From Blattabacterium cuenoti (GTDB lineage: Bacteria > Bacteroidota > Bacteroidia > Flavobacteriales > Blattabacteriaceae): DNA of 64,000 nt. The position numbers were made by a program, and so were the translations under genes. The DNA lies in contig NZ_CP059182.1 in the NCBI RefSeq assembly GCF_014251255.1, positions 496,001 through 560,000 of the forward strand, written 5' to 3'. The notes below the pieces were generated by a model. The model had not been told where the DNA came from, did no database searches, and saw nothing but the letters and a program-made list of their open reading frames with translations. Every line of letters starts with the position of its first letter. Positions within the stretch are counted from its first letter, which is position 1. Below are positions 15,915 through 42,270 of the stretch, piece after piece.

Positions 15915-16721
15915 ATGTTTATATTATACAATAAAACAAATATTTACTACAAAATAAAAGGAAATAAAAGTGGAATAGCCATTATTTTTTTGCATGGATT
16001 TATGGAAAGCTTAGAAATTTTTTTACCAATTTCCAATTTTCTTTCAAAAAAATACAAAGTCATTTTAATAGATTTTCCTGGTCATGGAAAAAGTTCTTTT
16101 TTCAATTTAGAAAAAAAAATTTTTTCTATGGAAAAATCTGCTGAGATAATAAAATTAATTTTAGAAAAAGAAAAAATAGAAAAAGCAATTTTTATTGGTC
16201 ATTCTATGGGAGGATATATTGCTTTAGCTTTTGCAGAAAAAAATCCAGAAATCCTTTTAGGATTATGTTTACTTCATTCTACAGCATCATCTGATACACT
16301 GGAAAGAAAAAAAAACCGTATTAGATCTATACAACTTATAACAGAGAATTACCCTCTATTTGTTTCTACTAATCTCAATAAATTATTTAATCCTAACAAA
16401 TTTAATTTGTTACAAAAAGAATTTCATTTTTTAAAGAAAATAGCATTATCTACTTCTGTTTGCAGTGTTATTTCTTTTTTAAGAGGAATGTCTATTCGAA
16501 AAGATAGAAAATTTGTATTAAGAAACACAAAATTTCCAAAATTATATATTATAGGTCTTTATGATTTAATTCTTGATCCCAAAAAAATTATTGAGGAATC
16601 AAAAAGTGGATATAAAAGTTATTCTATTAACATTCCCACAGGTCATATGGGTCCACTAGAAAATTCAAAAAAAATAATCGAAATTTTGGAAAATTTTGTA
16701 TTTCATTGCATTATGAAATAA
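15915..16721 (+). CDS. Alpha/beta-fold hydrolase
   Basis: 268 residues with a complete alpha/beta hydrolase core: oxyanion-hole segment FLHGFME near residue 27, nucleophile elbow GHSMGG with Ser near residue 97, acid in GLYDLILDP near residue 220, and catalytic His in TGHMGP near residue 245. Esterases such as YbfF and small lactonases share this build. No signal peptide is seen, so it is probably cytoplasmic. The stop codon lies two bases before the presumed ATG of the cyclo-ligase gene. The substrate is unknown. Confidence 0.9.
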   Translation: MFILYNKTNIYYKIKGNKSGIAIIFLHGFMESLEIFLPISNFLSKKYKVILIDFPGHGKSSFFNLEKKIFSMEKSAEIIKLILEKEKIEKAIFIGHSMGGYIALAFAEKNPEILLGLCLLHSTASSDTLERKKNRIRSIQLITENYPLFVSTNLNKLFNPNKFNLLQKEFHFLKKIALSTSVCSVISFLRGMSIRKDRKFVLRNTKFPKLYIIGLYDLILDPKKIIEESKSGYKSYSINIPTGHMGPLENSKKIIEILENFVFHCIMK

Positions 16722-16723
16722 TA

Positions 16724-17355
16724 ATGAATAAAAAAGAACTAAGAAAAAAATATTTTTTTTATAGAAAATCTTTTTCTAAAAAAGAAATTTTTAAAAAGAG
16801 TTATGAAATTTTTTTACAGTTAAAAAAACTTTTCATTTGGAACAAAAAATATTACCATATTTTTTTACCTATACAAAAACATAATGAAATTAATACATTT
16901 ATTATTATCGATTTTCTTTTTAAAAAAAAAAGTATGTCACAATTCCTCATTCCAATTTTCATGAATTATCCATAGAGAATTGTTTTTTTGATGAAAAAAC
17001 TTTTTTAAGAGTAAATCAATATGGAATTCTAGAACCTAGAAAAAAAAATATAATTCCTCCTGATCTTATTGAGGTGATATTTATTCCATTATTAGTTTTT
17101 GATAATAAAGGATATCGTGTTGGATATGGAAAAGGATTTTATGATAGATTTATTAGACTATGTAAAAACAATGTTATCAAAATAGGGTTAAGTTTTTTTT
17201 CCCCTGTAAAAAAAATTGAACCTCTTCATAAAAATGATCTTATCCTAGATATAGGAATCACTGTCAAGAAAGTTTTTTTTTTCAATAATTCAATAAAAAA
17301 ATACCTTAAAAATATCCCAGACAATAACCATCATCATGATAAGACTAATCATTAA
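16724..17355 (+). pseudogene. 5-formyltetrahydrofolate cyclo-ligase, frameshifted in an A10 tract
   Basis: Converts 5-formyl-THF to methenyl-THF. The first part (ATG at 16724, MNKKELRKKYF) runs in one frame to a stop at about 16975. The conserved remainder is in the -1 frame: YVTIPH, then YGILEP, then FIPLLVFD and the family signature GYGKGFYDRF. The frames meet at a run of ten A (16922-16931). Adding a single A joins them into about 210 residues, the normal length. The rest of the gene has no other stop and keeps all motifs, so it is either very recently broken, rescued by slippage, or misread in sequencing. Its 3' end overlaps the rseP 3' end by 66 bases on the opposite strand. Confidence 0.85.
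16922..16931 (+). repeat. A10 homopolymer at the cyclo-ligase frameshift
   Basis: Ten consecutive A between T at 16921 and G at 16932. In the upstream frame it is read as Lys-Lys-Lys then Ser. With eleven A it would be four Lys followed by Tyr-Val-Thr-Ile-Pro, the family continuation. Confidence 0.9.
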
Positions 17356-41533: not shown

Positions 41534-42270
41534 ATGAACAAAGACCCCCTTTTTTCAAGGGAAAAAGAATTAACAAAAATGTTTGACGATATTTCTTCAA
41601 AATATGATTTGATTAATCATATTTTGTCTTTTGGAATAGATTTTTTATGGAGAAGAAAAGCTGTTCATTTACTTAGTCAAATAATAACAACTACAAAAGA
41701 AAAAAAAAAATATTAGATATAGCTACTGGAACTGGAGATTTGGCTATTTTACTAGCTAAAAGATTTGATGATATCAATGTAATTGGATTGGATCCATCTG
41801 ATAAAATGCTAAAAATAGCTAAAAAGAAAATAAAAAACAATTTTTTGGAAAAAAAAATTCAAGTGATTCAAGGATATTCACAAAATATTCCATTTGGAAA
41901 TAATACTTTTGATATAGTGACTATTTCGTTTGGATTAAGAAATTTTCAGTATTTTCACCGTTCTTTTAAGGAAATCTATAGAATTCTTAAACCCTTAGGG
42001 ATTTTAGAAATTTTGGAATTTTCTCTTCCTTCAAATACTTACGTAAAAAAAATTTACCATTTTTATTCTCATTTTTTTTTACCTAAAATAGGAAATTTTT
42101 TATCAAAAAATCATTTTGCTTATAGCTATTTACAAGAATCTATTAAATCTTTTTCAGATTCTTATTATGGAAATAAAATGAAAAAATTATTAAAAGATCA
42201 CAGATTTAAAATTATTCATACAAAAAAATTAACATGTGGAATTGCATCTATTTATTTATCAATAAAATAA
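41534..42270 (+). pseudogene. ubiE: Menaquinone/ubiquinone methyltransferase (MenG/UbiE), frameshifted in an A11 tract
   Basis: SAM-dependent C-methylation of demethylmenaquinone, the last step of menaquinone synthesis. The first part (ATG at 41534, MNKDPLFSREKELTKMFDDI) ends at a stop about 60 codons in. Motif I of the SAM site, ILDIATGTGDLA, follows in the -1 frame, with the rest intact to 42270: GLDPSDKMLKIA, VTISFGLRNF and a normal C-terminus. The frames meet at eleven A (41700-41710), and one more A makes a single 245-residue protein of normal length. No other stop or lost motif is seen. Slippage rescue, sequencing error, and recent decay remain open. Confidence 0.87.
41700..41710 (+). 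repeat. A11 homopolymer at the MenG/UbiE frameshift
   Basis: Eleven A between G at 41699 and T at 41711. As written it reads Glu-Lys-Lys-Lys-Tyr-stop. With twelve A it reads Glu-Lys-Lys-Lys-Ile-Leu-Asp-Ile, the start of the SAM-binding motif. Confidence 0.9.

Follow-up and report, generated by a model that had tools for sequence, protein, structure and literature searches.

A single-base break in menG/ubiE

The window analysed here is a 64,000-nucleotide stretch of DNA from Blattabacterium cuenoti, a fat-body symbiont of cockroaches and termites. The chromosome that carries it is single, with a length of 632,233 bp and a GC content of 25%; genomes of the genus range from approximately 511 to 642 kb. 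On the plus strand of the window, menG/ubiE is encoded in two pieces that lie in different reading frames. The N-terminal piece (41534..41716) extends from the ATG at 41534 to a premature TAG at 41714-41716, 60 codons later, and thus encodes 60 aa. The C-terminal piece (41710..42270; plus strand; 186 codons) continues in the -1 frame, which is open from 41710 through SAM motif I (ILDIATGTGDLA) to the normal TAA stop at 42268-42270. The frame breaks at a run of exactly eleven A (41700..41710; plus strand), where the zero frame reads GAA AAA AAA AAA TAT TAG and the downstream frame reads AAA ATA TTA GAT. The first-pass annotation had described this lesion as a stop just after an A11 run with the remainder of the gene in the -1 frame, and our analysis of the sequence confirmed it. 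Adding one base to the 737 nt of the gene yields 246 codons, in agreement with the repaired protein of 245 residues predicted there from one additional A.

Both pieces matched TIGR01934 (E = 9.5e-11 for the N-terminal and 2.5e-57 for the C-terminal piece), which, together with SAM motif I, places the gene in the MenG/UbiE family and upholds the proposed methyltransferase identity; the enzyme catalyzes the final reaction in the making of menaquinone. A profile search of the genome revealed no second UbiE-family gene above the Pfam cut-off. Two complementing fragments generated via re-initiation are unlikely, as the downstream frame contains only ATA, and no ATG, GTG or TTG, between the run and motif I. 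The genes menA, menB and menD are retained alongside the broken menG/ubiE, and menaquinone has been named as the membrane electron carrier of Blattabacterium (PMC2768785). In two other genomes of the genus, menA produced two separate matches in different open frames (G047:C1:255523-256265 and G026:C1:391326-392158), which perhaps represent a further run frameshift in the menaquinone pathway.

A second gene in the window is broken in the same manner. The 5-formyltetrahydrofolate cyclo-ligase gene (16706..17355; plus strand) lacks one base in its A10 run, as the first-pass annotation had indicated when it likened the two lesions in type and sign.

Recurrence of the break across the genus

We compared ubiE among 49 genomes of the genus, in which the present strain is designated G000, and found the gene in all 49. 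It occupied one frame in 42 genomes and was broken in the remaining seven (G000, G005, G027, G032, G033, G043 and G047). All seven breaks fell within the linker that connects the N-terminal helices to SAM motif I, a segment that is variable in length and unconserved. Breakage was confined to genomes with a long linker run, occurring in 7 of the 17 with at least ten A and in none of the 32 with a shorter run (Fisher p = 2e-4). Mapping the break state onto the species tree required at least six changes under parsimony; G000 and its sister G027 were both broken, and their next relative, G026, was intact with an A13 run. Multiple independent stops in related strains had been named beforehand as the mark of true decay. 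We observed no second lesion in any of the seven broken copies, each of which carries the tract lesion alone. Separately, ubiE of the sister genomes G020 and G046 contains a compensated frameshift pair near reference residues 99-126 that leaves the frame open and replaces approximately 25 residues.

The cyclo-ligase gene was broken in 8 of the 11 copies with a run of at least ten, and a search for second lesions in these eight copies detected none. Within the clade comprising G043, G047, G001 and G041, all four copies were broken, at runs of A10 to A12 and with both signs, and the rest of the gene was conserved.

Lesions in a 60-kb syntenic block

We also surveyed a 60-kb syntenic block in the window and 46 relatives (47 genomes in total), aligning 52 protein families against the block with our own frameshift-aware program. 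Raw alignments contained terminal artefacts, and lesions were therefore counted only when located at least 30 codons from both gene ends; stop counts from simple tblastn searches ran past gene ends and were discarded as unreliable. Among the 2,335 gene copies, which are not independent because they derive from related genomes, 2,274 were free of internal lesions, 39 carried exactly one, and 22 carried between two and 32. The 39 single lesions comprised 37 frameshifts and two stops, and 35 of the 37 frameshifts were located at A/T runs of at least ten. In contrast, the 22 decayed copies contained 109 frameshifts, only six of them at runs of at least nine, together with 103 stops. This difference in lesion mix indicates that the single-lesion and decayed copies constitute two separate classes.

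Quantifying breaks per run uncovered a threshold at ten bases. No break was found at 17,044 runs of A6-A9, including 1,304 A9 runs, a result with a probability of 2e-4 if the A9 rate were one third of the A10 rate; 11 of 567 A10 runs and 11 of 183 A11 runs were broken, and the rate reached approximately 17% at runs of at least 13. The breaks were also biased in sign, with 30 of the 37 single frameshifts one base short (p = 2e-4), and hence repairable by insertion of one A, and seven of the opposite sign; in decayed genes, the ratio was 60:49 (Fisher p = 0.006 against the single frameshifts). Break rates per tract did not differ between A and T runs (33/862 versus 2/75, p = 1.0), so that the predominance of sense-strand A reflects tract abundance only.

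Several other genes carried lesions within the block. The gene murF, which encodes an essential cell-wall ligase, had a single frameshift at a run of A11-A16 in G003, G026, G036 and G038, at two sites within the gene. Single run frameshifts in otherwise intact genes were likewise present in ribD (riboflavin; G007 and G043) and folP (folate; G033 and G040). Family F45, which by eye resembles SecDF, was heavily decayed in G027, G011, G023 and G043, with 9 to 32 lesions, and intact in most other genomes.

Selection on broken copies

Subsequently, we asked how the broken copies evolve. The median log2 protein rate on terminal branches was -0.08 for intact, +0.13 for single-lesion and +2.45 for decayed copies. 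Decayed copies evolved approximately five times faster than single-lesion copies (p = 3e-9); the latter showed a small rate excess over intact ones (p = 0.016), indicating a possible mild relaxation. Where both sister copies were broken, dN/dS ranged from 0.12 to 0.33, compared with a median of approximately 0.2 for intact genes. For ubiE in G000 and G027, it was 0.25 (0.14-0.41), and for the C-terminal piece alone, measured against the broken sister G027, 0.28 (95% interval 0.16-0.48). Neutral evolution to a dS of approximately 0.28 would have introduced approximately seven stops per lineage into ubiE, and none was observed. For the cyclo-ligase, the corresponding values were 0.12 (0.04-0.26) for G001/G041, 0.31 (0.19-0.48) for G043/G041 and 0.28 for G000/G027.

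The broken ubiE copies exhibit neither the several stops or indels nor the relaxed rate of an eroding pseudogene. Instead, they share three features of genes rescued by slippage: one indel, located in a long A run, with the frame otherwise maintained, purifying selection without decay at a near-normal rate, and recurrence or persistence across species, as in the cyclo-ligase clade. The lone tract lesion and the constrained dN/dS of G000/G027, considered along with the retained men genes and the role of menaquinone as electron carrier, support the earlier proposal that losing this methyltransferase would be costly in the absence of frame restoration at the RNA level or during translation.

Proposed transcriptional slippage and alternative explanations

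From these results, we infer that the frame is rescued and that transcription is the step at which this occurs; menG/ubiE would then probably represent a tolerated frameshift, partly rescued by slippage at the A run. Under this model, a replication-slippage deletion in the long A run would place the gene one base out of frame, and RNA polymerase would slip on the same run, such that a fraction of transcripts gains one A (or loses two). Slipped transcripts would encode the full methyltransferase and keep the gene in use. An added or missing lysine should be harmless because the linker that holds the run, which precedes SAM motif I, varies in length and is unconserved. In E. coli and Buchnera, most of the errors that RNA polymerase makes within A/T runs insert a single base, and their frequency rises exponentially with run length (PMC5574713). 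The predominance of lesions one base short matches this dominant error and was counted in favor of slippage, although the bias could partly originate from deletion-biased replication slippage. The same genome-wide study of transcript errors in Buchnera recorded no error that restored a frame (PMC5574713), which counts against our interpretation. Loss of mismatch repair or of GreA was considered as a cause and is not supported, given that the MutS and GreA families were present in the nine genomes checked.

A -1 shift of the ribosome at the A run (A AAA AAA), replacing polymerase slippage or acting alongside it, could also restore the frame. It would suit the sign of 30 of the 37 single frameshifts, and the zero-frame sequence AAA AAA AAA TAT TAG is slippery. 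We nevertheless consider it unlikely, since seven copies require the opposite sign, and slippery sites need only approximately seven A's, a length at which the survey detected no breaks; the ten-base threshold and the opposite-sign cases together favor the polymerase. The threshold also reflects how frequently runs of a given length mutate and is hence not decisive against the ribosome. Nor does ubiE display the conserved slippery site and two-frame layout of a programmed -1 frameshift, being single-frame in most genomes, many of which lack the long run. Early decay, in which a mutable run has lately shifted the frame and further damage is yet to appear, draws on the mutability of long runs, on the truly decayed copies in the block and on the slight rate excess of single-lesion copies, and breaks in several lineages could indeed be recent. 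It appears decidedly unlikely, however, considering that neither the seven ubiE nor the eight cyclo-ligase copies have acquired a second lesion, that dN/dS remains constrained in pairs with both copies broken, that the cyclo-ligase is broken yet conserved in four related genomes, and that decayed genes show a quite different lesion mix.

The remaining explanations concern the DNA itself. If the true run were A12 and its length had been miscounted during sequencing or assembly, both the length dependence and the under-counting sign would be as expected from such errors. A platform error, however, should vary in frequency from genome to genome and affect every gene equally, and we observed the reverse: clustering of breaks was significant among genes (length-stratified p = 7e-4) but not among genomes (p = 0.48), such that runs of at least ten were broken at the above frequencies in the ubiE linker and the cyclo-ligase but in only 20 of 892 cases in other genes. 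Furthermore, at least some members of the genus were sequenced by Illumina (PMC6039017), and we regard a miscount as very unlikely. Polyploidy is usual in such symbionts, and because long A runs mutate readily, a mosaic of A11 and A12 chromosomes could keep some copies in frame at the DNA level; the assembly contains a single run length, and this scenario seems highly improbable.

Returning to transcriptional slippage, the rarity of breaks at equally long runs in most other genes distinguishes the two recurrently broken ones. A lowered amount of enzyme seems to be tolerated for menG/ubiE and the 5-formyltetrahydrofolate cyclo-ligase, and such tolerance would leave the run length in these two genes nearly free of reading-frame constraint. 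On a bolder version of the model, which strikes us as evenly balanced between right and wrong, slippage from approximately ten A onward would give enough product of these two housekeeping genes in any frame, and the run would drift across all three phases as the hosts diverged over long periods, with the remaining protein conserved. The broken fractions of 7/17 for ubiE and 8/11 for the cyclo-ligase approach the two thirds expected of a frame-blind run.

Relation to known systems

The phenomenon itself is already known from Buchnera and Blochmannia, where rescue of poly(A) frameshifts was described by Tamas et al. (2008) and Wernegreen et al. (2010), as related in passages of PMC5009743, PMC3017870 and PMC4972996; according to passages of the first two sources, 12-50% of the transcripts of such genes are corrected. 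As portrayed there, those cases resemble ours in that a long A run in a gene of an AT-rich insect endosymbiont contains one indel, the gene is otherwise intact and under selection, and frameshifts are kept across species and recur independently. The present case differs in belonging to the Bacteroidota, in drawing on many more genomes, in showing two genes recurrently broken at one site and in its measured ten-base threshold, whereas RNA correction is a prediction here. Our analysis adds the pattern across the genus, in which breaks recur at one site, depend on a length threshold and favor one sign, and in which tolerance differs from gene to gene. A literature search, with subscription papers mostly outside its reach, found no report of a slippage-rescued frameshift in Blattabacterium, and we claim no priority.

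In Blochmannia vafer, obliquus and turneri, genes of full length but for a single homopolymer frameshift were similarly counted as intact (PMC3017870, PMC4389277); the gene set is a different one, and neither ubiE nor the cyclo-ligase is among the cases named in the cited passages of those papers. During laboratory drift of M.HaeIII, indels in an A8 run were bypassed and the methyltransferase remained active, with both indels and bypass increasing with run length (PMC3812077), although that was a directed-evolution experiment on a DNA methyltransferase with shorter runs. Polymerase slippage on nine A or T also alters the frame of dnaX, as outlined in a passage of PMC5009743, but there it generates two useful products, whereas in menG/ubiE it would serve repair only.

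Our findings would extend slippage-rescued frameshifts to a symbiont of the Bacteroidota, and the genus offers a natural experiment on which genes tolerate partial correction and at which run length this tolerance starts. They also serve as a warning that "pseudogenes" called from one homopolymer frameshift in such genomes may work. In a paper on the Periplaneta symbiont, gltX, atpG and dnaN are listed as pseudogenes (PMC6039017), and these calls are worth rechecking for single homopolymer frameshifts.
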